A stretch of DNA of 12,135 bases, from the NCBI GenBank assembly GCA_016926315.1, contig JAFGOU010000435.1, forward strand, positions 1-12,135, in the 5' to 3' direction. The position numbers and the translations under genes were made by a program. The notes below the pieces were generated by a model, which was given only the letters and a program-made list of their open reading frames with translations, was not told the origin of the DNA and ran no database searches. Positions 148 to 12,135 of this stretch are shown here, one piece after another; positions within the stretch are counted from its first letter, which is position 1; each line of letters begins with the position of its first letter. Source of the stretch: Chitinispirillaceae bacterium. GTDB taxonomy: Bacteria > Fibrobacterota > Chitinivibrionia > Chitinivibrionales > Chitinispirillaceae.

Positions 148-377
148 CCTGATGAAATAAACGGGTAAGGCTTTCTCATCCCGTCACCACCAAGATCTAA
201 TTTTGAACCGGTGCTTAGAACTGAAAAAACGGGTTTTGATCGAAACGTTTAACATAAGTAGATCCTTATATCCGCCATTGGGAAGTTGACGATGTTGTTC
301 CAGACCTGTTGTTTGTTGGATAGGGGGGATTCCGGTAAATACCGGTCTTCCGGGATAAGGGTTCCAAACGCAAGATG

Positions 378-383
378 AAGGGA
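378..383 (+). promoter_or_regulatory. Ribosome binding site that favours the start at 393
   Basis: AAGGGA lies 9 nt before the ATG at 393. An in-frame ATG at 375 has only an AAGGG 13 nt upstream, which is too far. Starting at 393 also gives a cleaner signal peptide, so I prefer it. Confidence 0.45.
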
Positions 384-392
384 AGTTTTTGT

Positions 393-3300
393 ATGGTAAA
401 TCACTCATTCGGCAGATGGATCGCCGCGATTGGAGTTATTTCCATTGTCGCCACGGCCATTAATGCGGCGACATTCACCGTTGCAAAGGACGGGAGCGGG
501 CAGTACAACACGATCATGGCTGCCGTCAGGGTCGCAAAGGCGGGTGACTCGGTACGGATAATGGACCTGGCCACCTATGCCGAACAGGTCATAATCGACA
601 GCACGAAAACCGGGCTGATACTCTGTTCCCGGAGCCCCACGTCGTTCAGCAAACCGCGGATCGTCTACCGTGACTTGGTGAATGTCGGCCCGCGAAATTA
701 CCAGGAGTCACTCATCGACAGCCTGATCACGTTTGACCGGAACGGCGCATTGCAGATCCTGGCCGCACGAAACGTGGTCATCGACGGAATTGCCGTTGAT
801 GGGGGCGGTCCGTATTCGTTCGGCTATCCTGCCATCTGGAACAACCGGGATGCGCTTCAGCACGGCAACGGCGCGATCGCGCTCTGGATGTGCGGAGGCA
901 TTCATATCAAGAATTGCAGCATCTCCAACGCGTATTTCGGCATAAATTTCAAAGATCGTAACCAGGGGGGAATATTCGGCAACCCCAACCCTGCCGACAA
1001 CGAGCCATGGAGGGTCGTTCCGCTCTCAGGGTATGGCAAGACCGGAAACCATATCATCGAGTACAACCGGATACATCACAACTCAGTGGGTATGTTTTTC
1101 GAATCGTCCTGGGATCTCGGCAGCACGATCCGCTACAATCTTATCTATGAAAACCACCACCACTCAGACGCCTTTGCCACGGAAGTGAAAGCAAAAACCT
1201 CTGACGGCGGCAACCAGCCGGGCGGCGCCTTGATGTTCAAGGACGTCATGCTCAGCCCGCTGGCGATCTATAACAACACCTTCTGGCACAATTTTCTGGA
1301 AATGATCGGGCACTGGAAAACCGGGTATCAGCACCTGGTGTTCAACAACATTTACGGTGCGCCGTACCGGTATTTCAACGTTGAAACGATTGCCAACGCG
1401 ACCTATATGGACATTTGCAAGTGTCTGCCGAACCGGATGAACAACTGCATTTTCGCCGCGCATCAACAGGCGCCGAATCCGAGTTATGTCGCCATTTTCA
1501 ACAATTTTCAACCCCAGGCGGTCAACAACCAGATATTGCCGGGTGCGCTGGTCGTCGGCGGAACCCCTGCGTGGGCCGCCTCGGCCGACATCCGCTGGCT
1601 CGAGACCCCCTTTCTTTCGACCGACACGGCAAGCGCTAATTTTCTTGTTCCCGACTGGAGCGATCCGTCGGTCCAGAGCTTCATTATCAACAAGGGCTGG
1701 GAGGCATCCGGCGTGCGGGATCCCGATGGTTCCCGTGCCGATCTCGGCGCCATTCCGCAGGGCGGCGGCAGGGCGGTGGACGTGGCAACGATCATCCCGC
1801 CCATGCCGGTGATGTTAAGCAACACGACCAGCGGCAGCACCGCCACCGTGACCTTCGCGCTGTTGAGAAGGGGCGGCTCGATGACCGCTCCCACGATCAA
1901 GATGCACCGCTGGATCAGCAACCTTCCGTACGATAATACCGCTTGGTCGTCCAACTGGGCCGCGGGCGTGATCACCGCGGCGAATGTCAACACGATTGCC
2001 GCGCCTGCGACGCCGGTGGCGGTGGGCAGCAACAGCTACACCTTTCGCCTGCCGGTTGCGCAGACAACGAGCTATGCGTTTTTAGAGATGATCATCGAAG
2101 GCACCGGATCGAACAGCCTGCCCTATACCTCAACCGTCGGGTTTATTCCTTACCGTAAACTTGACTACTATTTTCTGGTGGAGATCCTTGACCGGAACAC
2201 GAGCGCCGTGCTTACCCAGGTCCACGCGGGAGACACCGTGGCTCTGCGCGTTCGCGCCTATTCGGCTGACGGCACCATTTTCTCGAATCCGATCAGCAAT
2301 GTTGACATCATCCTGCAATCCGGTTTCCAGTTGTTGACTACCACGACAGACCCGGCAACACCGCTGGTGGTGATCGCCTTGACCGGTGCGGCTTCGGGGT
2401 ATCGCAACAACAACGTCATGTTTACCAGGGTTCCTGTGGGTGATATCGAGATCGTTTCGGCCCGCGGTTCGTGGACCGATGGTACGAACACCCTGCCTTT
2501 CGGGTGCCGGCCCGCTATCATCAAAATCCTCCCCGGCCCGCCGGACAGCGTGGTGTTCCAGAATCCTCCCTCGGTCAAGTTCCAGGCAGCAACGCCAATT
2601 ATCGATCCGGGCATTCCCTACAATGGCCTGCTCTATGTTTACGACCGGTTCGGCAACCGGGCGGACCAGCCCACGGCGGTCAATCTCTCAAGCTTGAATT
2701 CGACCATCGGCAATATCGTGGGAACCGCGCCGGTCACCATCACGACCGACACCACCGGTTCCGGTATTTTCCAGGTTGAGGTGACCAACGGAAGCATGGG
2801 CCAGATTTTTTCTATTCGCGCCGATCTGCCGGGAAAACAGCCCGACACGGCGCGGCTCAAGGTCGGCGCGCCGCGCGACCGGTTATGGATTTTCTTTGGC
2901 GACACCGCTGCCTACGACCCGACCGTCCGGCTGCAGGGCACGGTGGGCGAGCGGCTGCCGGTGGTGATCATGTGCGGCAAGGTCGCGAATCTCGATTCAG
3001 CGGTCGCCACCGCCAATTTCACCTTTTCGGTGCTCGGCGCGACGGCGGGGCTCGAGTTTTACGCATCCTCGGCCGCCGCGACCTCCGCGACAAGCTTTTC
3101 CCTGGTGAACGGCCGCGCGACCGTATGGGTCACGAGCAGCGTGGCCATATCGAACGGCCAGTTCGCGGTGTCGCCCGACACGGTCAATACGGTCCAGCCG
3201 TCGGACCCGCGCGATAAAATATATTTTGTCAAGCCAGCGGTGGTGATCGACAGCGCGTTCTATTACACGGACAACGGCTTTGGACGTGTCGACCGCGTCG

Positions 3301-5000
3301 AGGTGTACTACAAGGACACGCTGGCGTTCGTGCCCGACTCCATGATTTTCTACTGGCCGTCGAAAATTACGCCGACCCCGAACCGCAGGGTGGTGACGGC
3401 AGCGGGCGGCGGCATGACGCTTGCCGCTGATAAAAGGCATTTGACCGTGACGCTGGCAACGCCGTTCCCTGCGGAGATCACCGCGGGCAGCACGGGCGAG
3501 AATCTCGGCGCGAGCTGGAACCGTTCCAACGCCGCGCCGACGCTGCCTGCCGAAGAGACACCCTTCAGGATCCAGGACCGCGTGGGCCCGCTTGCCATGC
3601 GCGCGCTGCTCGTGGAACGGCTCGGCGGCGGTGCGGGAACCGATACCCTGTACGTCTCTTTTTCAGAGTCCATCGTTCCGGCGTCCCTTGTCGGCGCGTC
3701 GCTGATTCTTATTAAGGCGGGAGCGGAGTCGCAGCTCACGGTTTCCGCCGCGACCGCGGCCGCGAACAACAACTACCGGCTGGTGGTCACGGGCACGGTC
3801 GCGCCGGCAGAGGGCGATTCGCTTCGCCTGCAGCCGGGCGGCCCGATTACCGATTCGACGGTCTGGCTCAACACGCCGCACCTGAGCAACCGGCCGGTGG
3901 TCATTGGGATCAAACCCGTGCCGGCGACCATTCTTTCGGCGTACTATCAGGATCGCGATGCCAACGGCCATGTGGACCACGTGGTGCTTCGATTCGCGAA
4001 AAAGGTCGCGCTCGTGGACTGTATCATTGAGCTTGACTTCGGCGTACCGCCCAAAATCGATTCGGTGGCCACCGGCAGGCTGAGTGCGGTGGTCACACCC
4101 GGGAGTCCATCCGACAGTATCGTCGATGCAAACATAGCAGGGCTGTTCACCGGGATATCCTATATCAAGACCGGCGGAAACATGAAGGCGACGGTTTCCT
4201 ACCGTTCCATTCCCGGCGAATCGGTGTCTTTTGGCAATGTCGCGGACAGTGCGGCGCCGGTGCTGATTGATTCCGCCACCTACTTTCCCGGGAAGGCGCT
4301 CAGCGCGACGGAATCCGATGCGGATACGCTCAGGGTTCATTTTTCGGAATCGATTAATTCCGCCCAATTGAAAGACACGCCGTTCAAGCTTTTCAGCGCC
4401 CTCATGGCAGCGCCGTATACGTTTACGGTTAATCCCTCCTCGATTGTTCCTGCAGGTCTTGTCAGCAATGGGGGCAGGGCGTATAAAATGATCGTTTCCA
4501 GCGGAGTGAATCCTGCCGCTATCCGTTTCCCGAGAACCGGAGACTCGCTATGGATCAATCAGAACGGCGGAATAAGGGATAGCGGCCTGGTGGTCCAGAA
4601 CAAGGAACCGAACCATAAGGTCAAGCTGTTCGTCGTGTTGAAACAGGATATCCAGATAATACTTTCTTCAAATCCGTTTGTAATAAACCAACAATTTGAT
4701 CTGGCCAATCCGAGGATCAGCGGAAGTGGTGTCGCCGTTATTATCAAGCCGCTCGGTGCCATGGGAGACCTGTCAAACATCACCGAAGCCTCGATAACCA
4801 TTTACGATGTCCTGGGCAACATCGTTCTCGAAAAAACCAAAATGAGCCAGAATATCCCCGAGAATGTCTATGCCTTCAACTGGAACGGCCAGAATAGAAA
4901 CAACCGGATGGTTGGTACCGGCACCTATGCCGCGGTCATCACCACGGTTCGAACCAATAAACAATATAGAGACCTTGTAAAGATCGGAGTCAAACGATGA
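393..5000 (+). CDS. Giant secreted beta-helix protein with Ig-like modules and a FlgD-Ig-like C-terminal domain
   Basis: A 1535-residue protein (1541 if the ATG at 375 is used). Residues 1-25 look like a signal peptide: basic start, hydrophobic run, cleavage after INA. Residues ~27-455 resemble a right-handed parallel beta-helix (pectin-lyase/NosD-like), with N-rich coil turns such as IEYNRIHHNSVGMFF and IRYNLIYEN, ending in DPDGSRADLGAIP, a common closing motif of such domains. Residues ~465-945 look like several beta-sandwich/Ig-like domains, one with the Big_1-like phrase YVYDRFGNRADQPTAVNLSS. Residues ~947-1410 hold a duplicated module. Residues ~1427-1535 resemble the FlgD Ig-like domain (IYDVLGN, then GTGTYAAVI, ending KIGVKR), often found at the C-terminus of surface proteins in Fibrobacterota and relatives, where it may act in outer-membrane export or anchoring. 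A polysaccharide lyase or binding role is possible, but I cannot identify catalytic residues. It is the first gene of the operon and its stop overlaps the next start. Confidence 0.85.
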   Translation: MVNHSFGRWIAAIGVISIVATAINAATFTVAKDGSGQYNTIMAAVRVAKAGDSVRIMDLATYAEQVIIDSTKTGLILCSRSPTSFSKPRIVYRDLVNVGPRNYQESLIDSLITFDRNGALQILAARNVVIDGIAVDGGGPYSFGYPAIWNNRDALQHGNGAIALWMCGGIHIKNCSISNAYFGINFKDRNQGGIFGNPNPADNEPWRVVPLSGYGKTGNHIIEYNRIHHNSVGMFFESSWDLGSTIRYNLIYENHHHSDAFATEVKAKTSDGGNQPGGALMFKDVMLSPLAIYNNTFWHNFLEMIGHWKTGYQHLVFNNIYGAPYRYFNVETIANATYMDICKCLPNRMNNCIFAAHQQAPNPSYVAIFNNFQPQAVNNQILPGALVVGGTPAWAASADIRWLETPFLSTDTASANFLVPDWSDPSVQSFIINKGWEASGVRDPDGSRADLGAIPQGGGRAVDVATIIPPMPVMLSNTTSGSTATVTFALLRRGGSMTAPTIKMHRWISNLPYDNTAWSSNWAAGVITAANVNTIAAPATPVAVGSNSYTFRLPVAQTTSYAFLEMIIEGTGSNSLPYTSTVGFIPYRKLDYYFLVEILDRNTSAVLTQVHAGDTVALRVRAYSADGTIFSNPISNVDIILQSGFQLLTTTTDPATPLVVIALTGAASGYRNNNVMFTRVPVGDIEIVSARGSWTDGTNTLPFGCRPAIIKILPGPPDSVVFQNPPSVKFQAATPIIDPGIPYNGLLYVYDRFGNRADQPTAVNLSSLNSTIGNIVGTAPVTITTDTTGSGIFQVEVTNGSMGQIFSIRADLPGKQPDTARLKVGAPRDRLWIFFGDTAAYDPTVRLQGTVGERLPVVIMCGKVANLDSAVATANFTFSVLGATAGLEFYASSAAATSATSFSLVNGRATVWVTSSVAISNGQFAVSPDTVNTVQPSDPRDKIYFVKPAVVIDSAFYYTDNGFGRVDRVEVYYKDTLAFVPDSMIFYWPSKITPTPNRRVVTAAGGGMTLAADKRHLTVTLATPFPAEITAGSTGENLGASWNRSNAAPTLPAEETPFRIQDRVGPLAMRALLVERLGGGAGTDTLYVSFSESIVPASLVGASLILIKAGAESQLTVSAATAAANNNYRLVVTGTVAPAEGDSLRLQPGGPITDSTVWLNTPHLSNRPVVIGIKPVPATILSAYYQDRDANGHVDHVVLRFAKKVALVDCIIELDFGVPPKIDSVATGRLSAVVTPGSPSDSIVDANIAGLFTGISYIKTGGNMKATVSYRSIPGESVSFGNVADSAAPVLIDSATYFPGKALSATESDADTLRVHFSESINSAQLKDTPFKLFSALMAAPYTFTVNPSSIVPAGLVSNGGRAYKMIVSSGVNPAAIRFPRTGDSLWINQNGGIRDSGLVVQNKEPNHKVKLFVVLKQDIQIILSSNPFVINQQFDLANPRISGSGVAVIIKPLGAMGDLSNITEASITIYDVLGNIVLEKTKMSQNIPENVYAFNWNGQNRNNRMVGTGTYAAVITTVRTNKQYRDLVKIGVKR
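3231..4634 (+). repeat. Tandem duplicated ~230-residue module inside the giant protein
   Basis: Protein-level repeat; copy 1 is about 3231-3914 and copy 2 about 3921-4634. Each copy has the same order of blocks. First is an aromatic strand with an Asp/Gly loop, TDNGFGRVDRV versus DRDANGHVDHV (the second fits DxDxNGxxD, as in dockerin/EF-hand-like calcium loops). Second is DRVGP or DSAAP followed by DTLYVSFSESI versus DTLRVHFSESI. Third is GDSLRLQPGGPITDS versus GDSLWINQNGGIRDS. The DNA copies have diverged, so this is an old duplication. The DTLxVxFSES strand recalls SbsA-like/Big_5 Ig domains. Confidence 0.75.
4986..4989 (+). promoter_or_regulatory. Ribosome binding site inside the end of the giant gene
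   Basis: GGAG lies 7 nt before the ATG at 4997, within the last codons of the upstream gene. With the ATGA stop/start overlap this points to translational coupling. Confidence 0.6.
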
Positions 5001-5827
5001 TCTCACTTTTTTGCACCCGGACGCTGCGCTGCGCCGTGATCGCGCTTGGGGTCTTTGTTGCCGCGCCGTCGGTATACGCCGCGGGCAAGTCGATCACCGT
5101 GCCGTCGGGCAAGATCAAGACCATCAAGCAGGGCCTTGCCAGGGCCGGCCAGGGCGATACGGTATGGGTCGAACCCGGCGTGTACCGCGAAAACCTCATG
5201 GTCAACCAGGGCATCACCCTCAAATCCCGGATGCTGTACAAGGCGGTCATCAATGGCGGCAAGCACGGCACGGTCGTCTCCCTTGCCCGAAAAACCACGA
5301 TTTCGGGATTTGAGATACGCAACGGGACCATCGGGGTTCATGCGAAGAGCATCGGCATCTCCGTTTCCCGCTGCCGCATCGTGAACAACTGGCAGACCGG
5401 GATCGTGTGCGTGCGGAGCCTGGCGACGATCGAAGACAACGTCATCGCCTTCAACGGCGGCTCGGGCATCCAGATTTACAACGTGAGCGCGACGGCGGGA
5501 ACCATCAATCACAATACCATTGCGTATAACGGCAACCACGGTATCGCGCTGGGCGGAAACGCGCCCGTTCCCATTGAAAACAACATCATCGCCTTTAACG
5601 AGCGGTTCGGCATTCTGATCAAGGGCAACCGCAAGGGGCTTACCATCGAGTCGAACAATGTGTACGGCAATTTCTTCGGTTCTCCCGGTCCGCCGGCCAA
5701 AAACGTCGCCATTGATCCCGAATTCGCCTCGCCGAGGATGAAAAAAGACTTTGCCGTGAAATCAAAACAGCTCAAGGGAATCAAAGGATCGGATAACGAA
5801 CAGTTCGGTATCAGGTTCATTTATTAA
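4997..5827 (+). CDS. Secreted right-handed parallel beta-helix protein
   Basis: 276 residues. Residues 1-28 form a signal peptide (MISLFCTRTLRC, a hydrophobic stretch, cleavage after VYA), so the protein acts outside the cytoplasm. The mature part opens like many pectin-lyase-fold proteins: TIKQGLARAGQGDTVWVEPG at 42-61, then YRENLMV. Regular coils follow, each of the form IxxNxIAFNxxxGIxI: about 122-138, 145-160, 169-185 and 193-208. This is the NosD/DUF1565-like beta-helix pattern. No catalytic triad or known lyase signature is visible, so it could be a polysaccharide lyase, a binding protein or a structural surface protein. The opening motif parallels that of the beta-helix in the upstream gene, suggesting a related fold and substrate. 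The ATGA overlap couples its translation to that gene. Confidence 0.85.
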   Translation: MISLFCTRTLRCAVIALGVFVAAPSVYAAGKSITVPSGKIKTIKQGLARAGQGDTVWVEPGVYRENLMVNQGITLKSRMLYKAVINGGKHGTVVSLARKTTISGFEIRNGTIGVHAKSIGISVSRCRIVNNWQTGIVCVRSLATIEDNVIAFNGGSGIQIYNVSATAGTINHNTIAYNGNHGIALGGNAPVPIENNIIAFNERFGILIKGNRKGLTIESNNVYGNFFGSPGPPAKNVAIDPEFASPRMKKDFAVKSKQLKGIKGSDNEQFGIRFIY

Positions 5828-5882: not shown

Positions 5883-8147
5883 ATGAAAGAACGCACCAGC
5901 ATGAGACACACAAAAGCATTCCGAGCCGCATACGGGTGGTTGGTCGTGCTTGCTCTCTCCGGAGTCGTTTCCTTTTCCGCCGCCGCCGGCCTTCCCGGTG
6001 AATTCGTCATCACGCAGCGGTGGCGCGAGCTCGCGTCGAACTATTCGCCCCTCTCGAACCCTGCGTTTTTGACCCAGGAGAACTACCTGACCGCCCGTCT
6101 TACGTCCTCCACCATCCTGCAGGAGTTCTTTCATCTCGATGCCGGCGTTACGCTGCCCATCGGTCTCTTCCAGTCTTTGGGTCTTTCGCTGGCAATGGAG
6201 GGACCGAACCGCATCAATGAGTGGATAAACGGGGATTCAACCGGCAGATCCCTTTCAGCGCAGACCCAGCATATTACGCTCAGCTATGCGATCAACCCGT
6301 GGAACGGGCTTTCTCTCGGAGTGAACCTTAACCTGCTGCAGCAGTCGGCGTTCGGCGAGCAGCGTATGGGCGGCGGAGCTGACCTCGGCGTCTCGTACCG
6401 GCTTCTTAAAAACCCGATCGTCGGCAACCATCTGCTGGGCCTGGCGGTCCAGAACCCGTTGACCCTGCGTCTTTCCTCCATACCCATAGACATCTACTCC
6501 CGCAATATCCGGTTAACCCTGTATTCAACCTACCTTGAGAAAATGATCGAGAGCAATTTCGACTACTGCCTCAAGGACGGAGAGACGGAATATTCCGGAA
6601 GGCTGGGGGTCGCCATTATCCAGATGTTCAGGCTCTACGCGCTCATGGGCTACTCGACCAACGGATTCGGTCACTGGGGCGCGGGGGTAACGGTCAATAT
6701 GCCGTCGATCTATCAGGGGCGCGACCTGCTCGCCGGATACCAGATCATGCAGGTCTCGACCGACAAGGTGCTGTCCAACACCTTTTACGTGCGCGCCGAA
6801 TTCGGTTCCCACCGTGAAGAGGTTTTCGCGCGTACCGACAAGCTCGACGTGGCGCCCAACGCGATCTATCTCAAGGCGCTCCAGCTCTACAAAGAGGGAA
6901 AATACTGGGAAGCGTATTTCCTGTTCTCGCAGATTTTAAACGAGTATCCCGATTTCTTCAACAACGACTGGGTGCTTTTTTACTCCGGGAGCTGCCAGGA
7001 GAAAATGGACTTTCGGACGATCAGCCTGCTGACGCATTCCGCGCTCGAGCTTGAATATCCGTTCAGCAATGCGATGATCCCGGCCCGCCTTTCCACGATG
7101 CGGATCCACTACCGCAACGGCGATTTTTCCAATGTCGAAAAGATCTTCCAGCAGCTTCAGGAGAAAACGGTCGCCGATTCCATCAAGTATTCCGCGGATT
7201 ATATCATGGGTCAGGCGCTCATGGAACGAAAGGAGACTGACAGGGCCATTGAGGTGCTTATGCGGGTCCACCCCTCCCATGCCGACTATCTTTTTGCCCA
7301 GCACTCCATTGCCGTGGCGCAGTTTACGCAGGAAAAATACGACGAGGCGATGCTGAGCCTTCAGAACTGCGTGACCGAACGGCCCAAGGAGCAGAATAAA
7401 AAAGAGGTCGTCAACCGCTCGTACCTTCTCCTCGGGTATCTGTTCTTTGAAAACCCGCTTAATGAGGAAAAGCCCCTTTCCAAGACGGTCGCCATGCTCC
7501 GCGAGATCCCGCCGCAGAGCGTATACTACGACGAAGCAACCCTTGCACTCGGATGGACCGCCATCAAGGCGCAGCAGTTTGCCGACTGCATCAAGCACGG
7601 CGAGGCGCTGCGCTCATCGAAGAACCCGCTGTTTCATTTCGAAGGGGCGCTCATTTCTGCCTACGGATATATGAACCAGCAGAAGAATACCGAGGCAAAG
7701 GAGATTCTCTCCGCCGCAACCGCGCAGATCGAAAACCTGCGTCCCGTGTCGGAAGATTCGGTTTCCATGGAACAGCAGCGGTACCTCGATACGCGGTCGA
7801 CTTACGATTTCCTGGCCAAGCGGGTCGCTGAGTGTGCCCAGAAGCAGCAGATCGGGCCGGTGCTGCAGGAAAACGCCTCCCTTCGCACCGAACAGCGCGA
7901 TATCAAAAAGAGGATCGACCAGTCGATCGCCTATTTCGACGCCTATAAAAAAGGCCTGTTCCTGACGCGCAATTACGAGACCATCAAGAGCGAAATCGCC
8001 TATATGCTTGCGGTCGTCACCCGCCGCACCGCGGCCACCGGACAGATGAAGCAGCTCGAAAAGGCCAAGGAAAAAGAGAAGGACATCGACAAGGAGATCG
8101 AAAAGCTCAAGCAGGAGATGGAAAAGATGGAGAAGAACGGGAAGTAA
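5883..8147 (+). CDS. PorV/PorQ-like outer-membrane barrel fused to periplasmic TPRs and a coiled coil
   Basis: 754 residues. Residues ~1-35 form a signal peptide (basic start, hydrophobic VVLALSGVVSF, cleavage near AAA-G). Residues ~45-308 look like an outer-membrane beta-barrel of the PorV/PorQ kind: SNPAFLT near the start, alternating amphipathic strands with Gly/aromatic turns, LGVSYRLL...LLGLAVQNPL at 168-193, and a last strand ending FYVRAEF. Residues ~327-616 hold tetratricopeptide repeats, for example AIYLKALQLYKEGKYWEAYF at 327-346, and further units near 434-467, 468-501, 549-582 and 583-616. Residues ~660-683 and 718-754 are charged coiled coil, the tail very rich in Lys/Glu. I infer a barrel in the outer membrane carrying a periplasmic TPR scaffold. 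PorV-type proteins serve type IX secretion, so a role in export or surface attachment of the two upstream proteins is plausible but unproven. Neither ATG 5883 nor in-frame ATG 5901 has a strong ribosome site; the start could be 5901. Confidence 0.8.
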   Translation: MKERTSMRHTKAFRAAYGWLVVLALSGVVSFSAAAGLPGEFVITQRWRELASNYSPLSNPAFLTQENYLTARLTSSTILQEFFHLDAGVTLPIGLFQSLGLSLAMEGPNRINEWINGDSTGRSLSAQTQHITLSYAINPWNGLSLGVNLNLLQQSAFGEQRMGGGADLGVSYRLLKNPIVGNHLLGLAVQNPLTLRLSSIPIDIYSRNIRLTLYSTYLEKMIESNFDYCLKDGETEYSGRLGVAIIQMFRLYALMGYSTNGFGHWGAGVTVNMPSIYQGRDLLAGYQIMQVSTDKVLSNTFYVRAEFGSHREEVFARTDKLDVAPNAIYLKALQLYKEGKYWEAYFLFSQILNEYPDFFNNDWVLFYSGSCQEKMDFRTISLLTHSALELEYPFSNAMIPARLSTMRIHYRNGDFSNVEKIFQQLQEKTVADSIKYSADYIMGQALMERKETDRAIEVLMRVHPSHADYLFAQHSIAVAQFTQEKYDEAMLSLQNCVTERPKEQNKKEVVNRSYLLLGYLFFENPLNEEKPLSKTVAMLREIPPQSVYYDEATLALGWTAIKAQQFADCIKHGEALRSSKNPLFHFEGALISAYGYMNQQKNTEAKEILSAATAQIENLRPVSEDSVSMEQQRYLDTRSTYDFLAKRVAECAQKQQIGPVLQENASLRTEQRDIKKRIDQSIAYFDAYKKGLFLTRNYETIKSEIAYMLAVVTRRTAATGQMKQLEKAKEKEKDIDKEIEKLKQEMEKMEKNGK

Positions 8148-8260: not shown

Positions 8261-10672
8261 TCACCCCAGCACCACCTCGATCGCCACCGTCTCCCCCTCT
8301 TTGCCCAGGGGAACGAGGTTTCCCTTCTGGAGGCGGCCGTTGACCGTCATGGAGGCAACCCCCTTGTTTTTATGGTCAGGATTTTTCACCGAAACCCTGT
8401 ACAGGCATCCCCTGAATTTTCTTTCTACGGAAAAACCTTCCCACGACGACGGAATGCAGGGGTCGATGACGAGCCCGTTATACGCGGATCTCAGCCCCAG
8501 AATGTGCTTCGTTGCCGCCTGGTAGGTCCACGACGAGGTGCCTGAGAGCCAGGAGTTGCGTCCCAGGCCGAACTGCGGATGTTCGTCGCCCAGGATGTTC
8601 TGGGCGTACACGTACGGTTCGACCTCGTATTCGTCAATGCGCTCGTTTTTTTTCGCCGGATTGATCTGGTCGTAATATTCGTACGCGTAATCGCCGTTGC
8701 CGAGAATGGTCTCGGCGATCATTACCCAGGGGTTGGTGTGGAGAAAAATGCCGCCGTTTTCCTTTGCGCCCGGAGGATAGGTGGTAATGCCGCCTTTTGA
8801 CGGGTCGAATCCGTTGAATCCGGGCGTGGAAAGTTTTATTCCTTTGGGCGTGTTGAGCATTTTCCGCACGCTGTCGAGCGCGGCCCTGCCGCGCTCCGGA
8901 GAAGCGAATCCAGCGATAACCGGCCATGACTGGCCGTTGATGTAGATCTTACCGTATTCGTTGTTATGCGATCCGAGCGGCGTGCCGTCGGCGTCGAAAT
9001 AGCGGAGGTACCACTGGCCGTCCCAGGCTTTTTCGTTGACACTCGCCTTGATTGCCGCATAGTCGGAGGTGTATTCGTCAACCAAGGCTTTTTTGTTTAG
9101 AAACGCGGCCAACTCGATCATTTCGAGGAGTGCTTTGCCGTAGAGGCAGGCGTTGAACATGGATTCGGCGCCGGCGGGCAGATTCACGCAGTCGTTCCAG
9201 TCCGCGAACCCGAGAAGCGGCAGGCCGTGAACGCCCATATTTTCGCGGGTAAAGTGCAGAGCGCGGCGAAGGTGGTCGACGACGGTGTCCTTTTCCACGG
9301 GATCTCCCCCGCGGGACTTTTCGTAGTAGGGCACGATCTCCCTGAGAAACGCGCTGTCGCCGGTATCCTTGACATACGAGGTCACCGCGAGCACGATCCA
9401 TAAATGGTCGTCGCCGTAGTATTGAGGGCGGTCGGGCCGCTCGTGCGCGTCGCCGTTTGAAGCCTCCATGCTCAGGGGATTGAACTGATGCATGGCCGAC
9501 CCGTTGCATTTCTGGGTGGAAAGCAGCTTGATAAGAAGCGCTTTCGCCTCCACGGGCAGGTGGCCGGTCACGCCCATCACGTCCTGCGAACTGTCGCGGA
9601 ATCCCAGGCCGCGCGTTCCCAGTCCGAGCTGGTAATAGGAGAGGTAGCGCGACCAGTTGAAGGTGACGAAGCACTGGCGGGGATTGTGCACGTTGATCAT
9701 GCTGTTGAACGCCGCGTCAGGAGTGCGCACCTGCATGACGGAAAGGTGGCGTTGCCAGAAATCGGCCTGTGCCGCAATCGCGCGGTCGACCTCGGCGGTG
9801 TTCCTGAAGCGTTTGATCTGCGGCATCGCCGCCTCCACGTTTTTTTCCTGGCAGAGCTGGGTGACGAGGCGGCGCTCCTCGCCGGGCGCCAGGGTGCCCA
9901 GCCGGTGCATGAGCGCGGCGATGTTGTCGCCGCGGTTTGCTTCGCTGCTGTCGAGCTCGGCGTTTTTAAGCAGGAGCGGATGTTTCCAGGTGCCGTATTC
10001 GTTGTCGCCAAGAAACCGCTTCCGGTCCGTGGCAAAGGAGGAGGCCGGCAGATTCGAGGTGAACAGGTTCACGTTCGTGTCGCGTTTCATGAACGCGTAC
10101 TGGAGCAGGATGGAGAGGCCGTTATTGTCGGTGACGCAGCGTGACTGCATGGTCTGCGGCACCCAGTCGGCGTTCGTGTACTGCTTGACCGCGTCGAAAT
10201 GGGTATATTCGAGAACCGGGATGAGATCGAGGGAAAGAGGCTTGCCCGAGATATTGGAGACCCTGATGTCCCGTATTTCCAGGTGCGCGTCGAGCGGCAC
10301 GAATATGCGGCAATCGGTCAGTACGCCGTACATTACGGTGACGATCCGGGTGTAGCCGAGACCCACGTGGCATTCGAACCGGTCGAACGGGTCGAGCGTG
10401 GGAACGAAAAACGGCGAAAAAAGGCGGTACCCGTTTCCCTCCCGGATGCGGCAGTAAAGGGTTTCCCCCTTGAACTCCGAGGACGGCATCTGCTGGATGT
10501 ACTTGGTGATCCGGTTGAGCGACGGGTCGCCTTTGCAGATAAGAGCGCCTCCGGTGTGGTCCACGAACCCGCCGAACGCGATCGTGCCGATATAATTGAT
10601 CCATTTTACCGGCGTTTTCGGACTGGTGATCACATATTCCCGCGCCGCGTCGTCGAAGTAGCCGTAGGTCAT
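8261..10672 (-). CDS. GH94 beta-glycoside phosphorylase, acceptor specificity unknown
   Basis: 803 residues from the ATG at 10672. A GH94 enzyme is a cytoplasmic inverting phosphorylase that splits a beta-glycoside with phosphate to give a sugar 1-phosphate. The N-terminus (MTYGYFDDAAREYVI, then WINYIG) is typical of the family, and the ~800-residue length fits cellobiose, chitobiose and cellobionate phosphorylases. Landmarks: GLGFRDSSQD near 355-364, the catalytic block FADWNDCVNL with the general acid at Asp494, YPPGAKENGG near 632-641 with the phosphate-site His645, and SWLSGTSSW near 707-715. Compared with cellobiose phosphorylase, the loop after the catalytic Asp is about 18 residues shorter and the Glu of GEISSYPPG is Gly. 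Donor-site Arg354 and Asp360 are kept, which suggests a glucosyl donor; the acceptor may be a longer, oxidised or otherwise different sugar. It is downstream of the cellobiose phosphorylase gene. An in-frame ATG at 10699 overlaps that gene's stop but lacks a well-placed ribosome site. Confidence 0.92.
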   Translation of the reverse strand: MTYGYFDDAAREYVITSPKTPVKWINYIGTIAFGGFVDHTGGALICKGDPSLNRITKYIQQMPSSEFKGETLYCRIREGNGYRLFSPFFVPTLDPFDRFECHVGLGYTRIVTVMYGVLTDCRIFVPLDAHLEIRDIRVSNISGKPLSLDLIPVLEYTHFDAVKQYTNADWVPQTMQSRCVTDNNGLSILLQYAFMKRDTNVNLFTSNLPASSFATDRKRFLGDNEYGTWKHPLLLKNAELDSSEANRGDNIAALMHRLGTLAPGEERRLVTQLCQEKNVEAAMPQIKRFRNTAEVDRAIAAQADFWQRHLSVMQVRTPDAAFNSMINVHNPRQCFVTFNWSRYLSYYQLGLGTRGLGFRDSSQDVMGVTGHLPVEAKALLIKLLSTQKCNGSAMHQFNPLSMEASNGDAHERPDRPQYYGDDHLWIVLAVTSYVKDTGDSAFLREIVPYYEKSRGGDPVEKDTVVDHLRRALHFTRENMGVHGLPLLGFADWNDCVNLPAGAESMFNACLYGKALLEMIELAAFLNKKALVDEYTSDYAAIKASVNEKAWDGQWYLRYFDADGTPLGSHNNEYGKIYINGQSWPVIAGFASPERGRAALDSVRKMLNTPKGIKLSTPGFNGFDPSKGGITTYPPGAKENGGIFLHTNPWVMIAETILGNGDYAYEYYDQINPAKKNERIDEYEVEPYVYAQNILGDEHPQFGLGRNSWLSGTSSWTYQAATKHILGLRSAYNGLVIDPCIPSSWEGFSVERKFRGCLYRVSVKNPDHKNKGVASMTVNGRLQKGNLVPLGKEGETVAIEVVLG

Positions 10673-10678
10673 TGAGGT

Positions 10679-10683
10679 TCCTT
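10679..10683 (-). promoter_or_regulatory. Ribosome binding site that decides the start of the second GH94 gene
   Basis: On the - strand AAGGA lies 6 nt before the ATG at 10672. The protein then begins MTYGYFDD, as GH94 enzymes usually do. The alternative ATG at 10699 adds nine residues with no family counterpart that I recall. Confidence 0.7.
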
Positions 10684-10695
10684 TATGTTTGGACG

Positions 10696-12135
10696 TCATC
10701 CCATTACCGCTTCCACCTGGTGTTCTTTCCCGTCATTCATAACCGGTACGACATTTCCGGCAACCGTAATACCGTCCACGGTCAGGCTTTTTATCCCCTT
10801 GCTGACATGCGACGGGTTTAGGACGATTATTGCAAATGTCGCACCGCGGAACTTCCGCGTTACCGTAAACCCGTCCCATTCCCGCGGAAGACAGGGATCA
10901 ATCACCAGGCCGTCGTATTCGGGCCGTATGCCGAGAAGGTACTGGGAAATCGCGACAAAGTTCCAGGCCGCGGTACCCGTAAGCCAGGAGTTCTTTGCCT
11001 CGCCGGGTCGTCCGGCCGCGTCCGTGCCCGCCACCATCTGCGAGTAGACATAAGGTTCGGTGCGGTGAAGATCGCTCTTCTCTTCGATATACGCGGGCGC
11101 GATGCGGCAATAGTAATCGAACGCCTTGTCGCCGCGGCCGATCATAGTCTCGGCGATCATGATCCACGGGTTGTTATGGCAGAAAATACCAGCGTTCTCC
11201 TTATAGCCGGGCGGGTATGAGGAGATTTCGCCAAGCTCTACATGATAGGTCCGGTAGGCCGGGTTCTGGAGCACGATCCCGTAGTTCGTCGCGAGCCGCT
11301 GCGCAACCGCATCGAGCGCTTTTTTCGCCTCGCCGGTCTCGACGCCGATCCCCGCCATGACGCAGTACCCTTGCGGTTCGATGAAGATCTGTCCTTCGGC
11401 ATTGTCGCGGCTGCCGATCTTGTTGCCGAAGAAATCATACGCGCGTAAAAACCATTCGCCGTCCCAGCCGTGCCTGAGCACCGTGGCACGCATGCGCTCC
11501 ACTGCGTCGAGCGCCCGTTCCGCCCCGGCGGCGTCCCCTTTCCTTCTGCACAGCGCCGCGTACTCCGGCCCGATGGCAACGAACATGCCGGCGATAAATA
11601 CCGACTCTGCGGTGCGTCCCGTGCGGTTGCCCGTGGTCTGGTATGATTCGTCGGGCGTTTCCGAAAAGCAGTTGAGGTTCAGGCAGTCGTTCCAGTCGGC
11701 CCGGCCGATGAGCGGCAGGCCGTGGGGACCGAGGTTGTTCGGCACATGGTCGAAGGAACGCCTGAGATGCTCGAGAAGCGTCGCCTTGTTGTCCGGGTCG
11801 TTGTCAAACGGCACCTGCTCGTCCAGAATGTCGAAATCGCCGGTCTCCTTGATATAGGCTGCAACGCCCGCGATGAGCCAGAGAGGGTCGTCGTTGAATC
11901 CGGCGCCGATATCGTTGTTGCCCCGCTTGGTCAGCGGTTGGTACTGGTGATAGGCGCTGCCGTCGGCGAACTGGGTGGAGGCGATGTCGATGATCCGCTC
12001 CCGCGCCCGCGACGGCACCTGGTGCACGAATCCGAGCAGGTCCTGGTTCGAGTCGCGGAAGCCCATGCCGCGGCCGATGCCGGTCTCGAAGTACGACGCC
12101 GAGCGCGACATGTTGAACGTCACCATGCACTGGTA
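10696..12135 (-). CDS. cepA: Cellobiose phosphorylase (GH94), 5' end beyond the window
   Basis: 479 C-terminal codons are visible; about 330 N-terminal residues lie beyond the right edge, since the family is ~810-820 residues long. The enzyme (EC 2.4.1.20) converts cellobiose and phosphate to glucose 1-phosphate and glucose in the cytoplasm. The match to Cellulomonas/Clostridium cellobiose phosphorylases, judged from memory, is close over long stretches: [74 protein letters not shown]-type [13 protein letters not shown], and [14 protein letters not shown]. Counting from these anchors, the Asp coded at 11686-11688 corresponds to the general acid Asp490 of the C. gilvus enzyme. Equivalents of Arg351, Arg362, Asp368, Trp488, Glu649, His666, Thr731 and Gly732 are all present, so the enzyme should be active and cellobiose-specific. 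It is the upstream gene of a pair with the second GH94. The apparent Met at 12126 is internal, not the start. Confidence 0.95.

Follow-up and report, generated by a model that had tools for sequence, protein, structure and literature searches.

Introduction

What could be the function of an outer-membrane barrel that continues into a long, presumably periplasmic arm and is encoded behind genes for secreted proteins? This question is raised by the gene at positions 5883..8147 (plus strand) of contig JAFGOU010000435.1 from a Chitinispirillaceae bacterium of the phylum Fibrobacterota; the whole stretch that was analysed, 12,135 nucleotides, is called the window in the following. The product is termed here a barrel-TPR protein, where TPR stands for tetratricopeptide repeat. 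Two kinds of its gene are distinguished: the core gene, which lies in an operon with motor genes, and the satellite genes, which the Chitinivibrionia, including the window, carry in addition and which have no motor genes adjoining. We give a probability of roughly 0.55 to the proposal that the window encodes a satellite head, seated in the outer membrane, of an envelope machine of the Agl/Glt-TonB kind that is driven by protons and occurs throughout the Fibrobacterota; the motor in the window's own genome is presumed. The best reading of the satellites is that they are alternative outer-membrane heads for one motor. The predicted fold, the family, the core operon, the linkage with partners and the genomes where a satellite is the only head found were obtained by computation.

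Fold and family of the barrel-TPR protein

The gene at 5883..8147 reads as 754 amino acids, its true start lying probably at 5901 (748 amino acids) because the database copy of the same gene has this length. The predicted architecture begins with a type I-like signal peptide (5901..5987, MRHTK...SAAA, read by eye from the sequence), followed by an N-terminal hatch (5988..6083) with an NPA motif at residues 59-61 (6057-6065), a 14-strand outer-membrane barrel of the FadL/PorV fold (about residues 68-312, 6084..6818), the TPR arm (residues 325-620, 6855..7742) and the long helices with a Lys/Glu-rich coiled-coil tail (residues 621-754, 7743..8144), all on the plus strand. The earlier note had taken residues 45-308 for an outer-membrane barrel, and the structure prediction bears this out; its description of a barrel extended into TPRs and a coiled coil, with the gene last in an operon with secreted beta-helix proteins, is likewise confirmed.

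Both marks of the FadL/PorV superfamily, the 14-strand barrel and the NPA in the hatch, are found, and FadL entries named after the NPA motif turn up among the fold matches. The protein shares these marks with FadL/TodX and differs from it in having the TPR arm and beta-helix or adhesin-like partners. Barrel and TPRs are predicted for the satellite and the core member alike. Among 59 satellites, 20 core members and 6 members of the Fibrobacter type, N59-P60-A61 is conserved at a level of at least 80%. Conservation across all classes is seen at 47 positions, among them the NPA of the hatch and many closely spaced positions where the barrel passes into the TPRs (308-362), and a motif in the coiled-coil tail is common to the satellite and the core protein (alignment A3).

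While the earlier note regarded the fusion of barrel and TPRs as a departure from known PorV/PorQ proteins, it is not an oddity: of the 150 sampled Fibrobacterota genomes, 141 have a match with an E value of at most 0.001, which in a few cases is weak. In this sample 73 genomes have exactly one match (core-kind matches being often split in two) and 36 carry a satellite-kind match (E <1e-150), 24 of the 36 being the starting genomes. A protein search gave 146 homologues, the best 120 of which are mostly 740-820 amino acids long, with the named organisms among these 120 being Chitinispirillaceae, Chitinispirillales, Chitinivibrionales or Fibrobacter. A single-protein search of the genome contigs gave no match, and an alignment-based search of the same contigs gave 48 loci, reaching 24 genomes with 1 to 14 matches each (including fragments and weak TPR matches) and, above 180 bits, at most seven per genome. 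The barrel-TPR proteins are a real, conserved and under-described family.

The core operon

The core operon has the order beta-helix-OmpA, barrel-TPR, 1240-residue TPR protein, ExbB, ExbD, ExbD and TonB/GltG-like. By tblastn at 20 Chitinivibrionia core loci, the genes present keep this one order in 20/20, where the core barrel-TPR gene is adjoined by beta-helix-OmpA at 18 loci, the long TPR gene at 18, ExbB at 16, the two ExbD genes at 14 and 13 and the GltG-like gene at 13; at most of the absences the stretch ends there. All seven genes, in order, are present at 12/12 of the fetched Fibrobacter-type loci. (Gene calls were greedy longest open reading frames, sometimes on the wrong strand; at locus L117 this gave no match and tblastn gave all seven genes.) With one ExbB/TolQ, two ExbD/TolR and a GltG-like gene, the operon has the gene set of the Agl/Glt type, and its last gene passes the curated cut-off for the AgmX/PglI C-terminal domain (78.1 and 82.7 vs 40 bits).

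It is noted that the operon as such is already in print, because Luciano et al. (PMC3169522) reported the Agl/Glt core complex (GltC, D, E and G with AglR, Q and S) in one Fibrobacteres member, in a single region and with duplications. The core operon is this 'core complex' already published for the Fibrobacter lineage; neither the barrel nor the beta-helix protein is mentioned in the part of that account available to us. Common to the two descriptions are ExbB, two ExbD, a GltG-like protein and TPR proteins in one region, and duplications in the lineage. By contrast, the present operon has a TPR subunit that forms one chain with a barrel of the FadL/PorV fold and has a beta-helix protein as its partner, whereas M. 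xanthus, compared by description, has the separate OmpA-like barrels GltA and GltB, which bind the TPR protein GltC (PMC4488436).

A cluster of like annotation, order and sizes is known from F. succinogenes S85: FSU_2396 (OmpA, 55.97 kDa), FSU_2397 (TPR, 83.84), FSU_2398 (TPR, 146.67), FSU_2400 (ExbB, 23.06), FSU_2401 and FSU_2402 (ExbD, 32.44 and 18.24) and FSU_2403 (TonB, 32.45) (PMC4619616, PMC6851124). The called genes at the fetched loci, with the largest values coming from early start codons, give 55.6-56.1 kDa for beta-helix-OmpA, 83.7-88.8 for barrel-TPR, 142.3-147.4 for the long TPR protein, 22.2-24.2 for ExbB, 32.2-32.6 and 18.0-20.0 for the ExbD proteins and 32.5-35.7 for the GltG-like protein. 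All seven S85 genes were reported to be up on cellulose, by 1.2 to 1.73 fold (PMC6851124). FSU_2396 and FSU_2397, which would be the head pair, are cited in PMC6851124 as components, together with cellulases and the fibro-slime protein FSU_2502, of a vesicle complex, and a four-protein complex and high expression of the cluster FSU_2396-2404 in gnotobiotic sheep have been described (PMC8092306). Judged by order, annotation and size, FSU_2396-2403 would be the core operon, and the core barrel-TPR protein may be the unrecognised barrel of this known cellulose-induced complex. The cluster has been published as OmpA, TPR and TonB/ExbBD, and the available parts of these accounts mention no barrel in FSU_2397 and no beta-helix in FSU_2396. 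The window copy differs from the cluster in being a satellite without adjoining motor genes.

Satellites and the motor in the same genomes

In six genomes (G017, G020, G021, G027, G029 and G050) exactly one barrel-TPR gene is present; it is of the satellite type, and a core one is lacking. Should the motor require a head in the outer membrane, no other candidate than the satellite was found there. In G020, G021, G027 and G029 (loci L126-L129) the TPR, ExbB, ExbD, ExbD and GltG-like genes stand in order, with an unrelated gene at the site of the two head genes; in G017 (L130) the same unrelated gene precedes the TPR gene, within which the contig ends; G050 shows no more than a fragment of the TPR gene, at 184 bits. 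A GltG-like match is present in 27/27 of the satellite-bearing relatives tested, a set outside which the window's own genome lies, and exceeds 330 bits in 23. As a separate observation, the GltG-like gene at L128:2587-3917 lies in two open reading frames, by assembly error or decay.

A motor specific to the satellites was considered and rejected: outside the core loci no ExbB, ExbD or GltG match above 40 bits was found, and a single ExbD-like gene, at L111, was seen later.

Partners of the barrel

The earlier note had expected homologues to adjoin beta-helix genes. This is what is seen, with beta-helix genes on the same strand at 40/79 at position -1, 18/63 at -2, 4/64 at +1 and 0/323 at the other positions within five genes; the counts include core loci, and the profile seeds come from the same loci, picked by similarity and not by position. 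A FlgD-Ig-like C-terminal domain is found at 19/79 at -1, 4/63 at -2, 2/64 at +1 and 3/323 elsewhere within five genes. Satellites adjoin short beta-helix partners, which have no match to the FlgD-Ig-like C-terminal profile, or large proteins with such a C-terminus.

The beta-helix partners of the satellites and of the core form one family, which is sharply bounded in whole genomes: 68 matches exceed 250 bits, 19 lie at 200-250 and the next at 110 and below. For 62 of these 68 strong matches, a barrel-TPR match is located on the same strand at a distance of less than 4 kb; among the other six, three are at contig ends as judged by their coordinates, L109 precedes a core gene truncated by the contig end, G007:C299 is on a separate contig from the core locus L061, and G015:C107 is a true exception. 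The 19 matches at 200-250 bits show a third beta-helix class that lacks linkage to barrel-TPR genes; a single one of them is near such a gene, being the +1 partner in G017. Members of this class (L098-L104, L106-L108, L112, L113) number about one per genome and have neither an OmpA domain nor a barrel-TPR neighbour, several having a TSP3-like tail at the end.

In the window the partner of this family is the secreted beta-helix protein of 276 amino acids (4997..5827, plus strand). It matches the satellite beta-helix profile (A2) at full length, 366 bits over 5-272 of 272, with the window row being one of the 12 seeds, and is 42-47% identical to five satellite partners. A tree of the beta-helix proteins keeps most '-1' partners apart from the '-2' partners (3 changes each vs 19.8 and 16.7 in shuffles), and the window protein groups with the '-1' partners (SH-aLRT, a likelihood-ratio branch support, 97). 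On the barrel-TPR tree, partner labels cluster, with 7 changes vs 19.4 shuffled for beta-helix and 10 vs 19.5 for C-terminal-domain partners (0/500 shuffles as low). These trees, quick maximum-likelihood trees without bootstrap in which the window rows sit on long branches, suggest that the beta-helix and barrel-TPR pair was duplicated together; the position of the window within the barrel-TPR tree is not resolved. The 83 tree members comprise 22 with a beta-helix partner, 22 with a C-terminal-domain partner, the window with both, 18 with neither and 20 core members.

On the core version the beta-helix partner carries an OmpA (peptidoglycan-binding) domain, which weakens the idea that it is a mere secreted surface protein. 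As to the large partners, among 9 scanned of more than 20, FlgD_ig was found in 6, VWA_2 in 4, PA14 in 2, CHU_C in 2 and the NCBIfam fibro-slime family in 2 (best E 2.9e-32); in the 8 for which single results are given, the matches over the Pfam cut-off are those of L038 (VWA) and of L018 and L040 (both PA14), and no FlgD_ig match is among them. The Glt complex of M. xanthus recruits CglB, which is a von Willebrand domain protein (PMC13104615). At one locus, L039, two satellite barrel-TPR genes occur, with a large C-terminal-domain protein and a 457-residue protein between them.

Proposed mechanism

Based on our proposal, the barrel would reside in the outer membrane, with the TPR arm and coiled coil reaching into the periplasm. 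Proton flow via ExbB/ExbD in the inner membrane would drive the GltG-like (TonB-type) rod, and the long TPR protein would relay the force to whichever head is in place, by way of the TPR arm of that head. In a satellite this arm, with the coiled coil, would presumably dock on the same large TPR protein of the motor. The beta-helix protein would tie the head to peptidoglycan in the core version or to a surface partner in the satellites. For the window, the 276-residue beta-helix protein would be the dedicated partner of the barrel and the 1541-residue protein encoded upstream would be held or displayed by the head at the cell surface; the work of the motor would then pull, move or stabilise this surface protein or a polymer bound to it. 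The docking, the force transmission and the surface function of the heads are what we infer from the computed results. Paralogous heads on one motor are known, one Agl motor serving both Glt and Nfs (PMC3858216).

A wider and more tentative form of the proposal, which we regard as somewhat doubtful, is that one motor per cell serves several exchangeable heads, given that a genome can have as many as about seven barrel-TPR genes. Every head would come with a beta-helix adaptor or a surface protein of its own (beta-helix, VWA, PA14/fibro-slime), and a polymer degrader could in this way apply mechanical work to whichever adhesin is displayed; the core member would be the barrel, so far overlooked, of the complex by which Fibrobacter adheres to cellulose.

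Several points weigh against the proposal that satellites are heads of this machine. The docking of satellites on the motor is inferred because the satellite loci are without motor genes. The core operon stays below the curated GltG equivalog (107.6 and 65.6 vs 650 bits) and GltC (36.3 vs 450) cut-offs, in which it is also unlike Agl/Glt. As TonB-like paralogues score about 240-280 bits in the same genomes, three GltG-like matches are insecure, those in G002 at 234 bits on a contig edge, in G017 at 245 and in G050 at 153. The genomes being drafts, an unseen core gene is possible where only a satellite is found. The pTM (predicted template-modelling score) of 0.54-0.55 does not fix the relative orientation of the domains, and the identity between core and satellite (helices 621-697 13%, coil 30%, first TPRs 32%, barrel 17%), read at the level of sequence, fails to pinpoint an interface with the motor. 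Among the 18 tree members with neither kind of partner, some are at contig ends. The core barrel-TPR gene at L061 is preceded by a 457-residue gene instead of beta-helix-OmpA, the beta-helix of that kind being on contig C299 of the same genome. Moreover, gliding driven by such a machine is hypothetical for Fibrobacter and Chitinivibrionia.

Alternative explanations

An alternative that we consider unlikely is that the barrel is a cargo-specific shuttle of the PorV type in the type IX secretion system (T9SS), which would take the C-terminal domain of the large neighbour at the SprA translocon and carry it to attachment, with the TPR arm as an SprE/PorW-like dock. A link to T9SS cargo is conceivable because SprA is over its cut-off in 22 of the 24 relative genomes (PorU in 15/24; the window genome is not among these) and because 22 of the 63 tree satellites, and the window in addition, adjoin proteins with a T9SS-like C-terminus. 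The window protein is also like PorV (LptO) in barrel fold, in the NPA-type hatch and in the FlgD-Ig-like C-terminal domain on many neighbours. However, it scores 25.1 bits on the curated PorV_fam profile, under the cut-off of 90, has about 440 additional residues of TPRs and coiled coil, and no T9SS gene was noticed adjoining it, while separate PorV_fam proteins are over the cut-off in 23/24 of the same genomes. Small beta-helix partners are as frequent among the tree members as C-terminal-domain partners (22 each), and ExbB/ExbD/GltG-like genes stand beside the widespread member. PDB sequence searches with the window protein gave generic TPR proteins and a few chance rows, with no T9SS chain among the matches listed. 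The idea of a PorV-SprE fusion, resting on likeness of fold, was demoted for this reason; here the chains of 6h3i, 8gl6 and 8gl8 are taken, by their entry titles, to be PorV and SprE. The helical arm aligns with SprE/PorW over most of its length, but generic TPR proteins align equally well and the window protein has no significant sequence match to SprE/PorW; the long TPR protein of the motor has a 56.8-bit PorW/SprE match, below the cut-off of 250.

The earlier note had suggested a dedicated device for export or surface assembly. In this suggestion the TPRs as a docking site for partners are plausible and the linkage with partners stands, whereas T9SS export is not supported as the primary reading because of the ExbB/ExbD/ExbD/GltG-like operon of the widespread member, the OmpA domain on the core beta-helix protein and the short partners without a FlgD-Ig-like match. 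As an observation apart, the PorV_fam proteins of Chitinivibrionia have an insertion of about 460 residues after an NPAGLG-type hatch at 11/11 loci read (L073-L083, e.g. L080:5907-8597 and L076:2982-5387), consisting by eye of beta-propeller-like repeats.

FadL-fold barrels are uptake channels, and it might be supposed, though we consider it improbable, that the barrel is the outer-membrane channel of an energised importer, with the TonB/ExbB/ExbD cluster driving uptake of cellulose or chitin oligosaccharides. TonB-dependent uptake of cellodextrin has been proposed for FSU_2400-2403, where a MalA-like protein could not be identified (PMC6851124); FSU_2397 could be that barrel. In the window, two GH94 phosphorylase-type genes lie immediately downstream of the module. 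These are tandem genes at 8261-12126 on the minus strand, the second truncated by the window end, and hence on the strand opposite to the barrel gene; NCBIfam yields no phosphorylase subtype for them, and no matching called gene is found at the other fetched loci. The adhesin-like neighbours (VWA, PA14, fibro-slime) also suit surface attachment better than uptake.

Least probable is a passive scaffold, in which the beta-helix and barrel-TPR proteins would do no work for a motor but would anchor surface enzymes or adhesins to the peptidoglycan, or give outer-membrane vesicles their shape. It could be read from the vesicle complex of FSU_2396 and FSU_2397 with cellulases and the fibro-slime protein (as cited in PMC6851124; PMC8092306) and from the OmpA domain on the core beta-helix. 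Against it stand the phylum-wide presence of the ExbB gene, two ExbD genes and a GltG-like gene in the operon of the core head, and the retention of the motor where only a satellite head is found.

Other genes of the window and of the satellite loci

Besides the barrel-TPR protein and its 276-residue partner, the window encodes the large secreted protein of 1541 amino acids (375..5000, plus strand), with a weak beta-helix-type N-terminus and an FlgD-Ig/CHU_C-like C-terminus, the Pfam matches of which are all under the cut-off. Its FlgD-Ig-like C-terminal domain (residues 1451-1541, 4725..4997, plus strand, ending IGVKR) scores 69.9 bits against a profile from the C-termini of the other loci, with the window row left out. 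The idea of two beta-helix proteins of one kind in the window was rejected. The 1541-, 276- and 754-residue genes are consecutive, and the overlap of 4 bases between the first two and the gap of 55 bases before the third suggest that they form one transcription unit. Promoter- or terminator-like sites in the window are no more frequent in a scan than in shuffled sequence.

At 8/48 of the first satellite loci (L006:5948-8049 and similar), a GT2-type membrane glycosyltransferase and a radical SAM protein are encoded upstream of the beta-helix pair. In one satellite group (L004, L018, L019, L020, L040) a TPR protein of about 1600-1720 residues is encoded upstream, and nitroreductase- and pseudouridine-synthase-like genes, with names read by eye, lie downstream of the satellites.

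Conclusion

Fibrobacter has no cellulosome, and it has long been asked how it grips crystalline cellulose and digests it. The components of the cellulose-induced OmpA/TPR/TonB/ExbBD cluster have so far been explained separately, as a scaffold, an importer and a vesicle factor. If the 'TPR protein' is the barrel-TPR protein and the 'OmpA protein' is the beta-helix-OmpA protein, the cluster would become a single machine spanning the envelope and open to direct tests. The satellites, of which the window has one, indicate that head and partner were duplicated together and that the head then came to be combined with other surface proteins; genomes with a satellite as the only head found provide a natural test of the exchangeability of heads.
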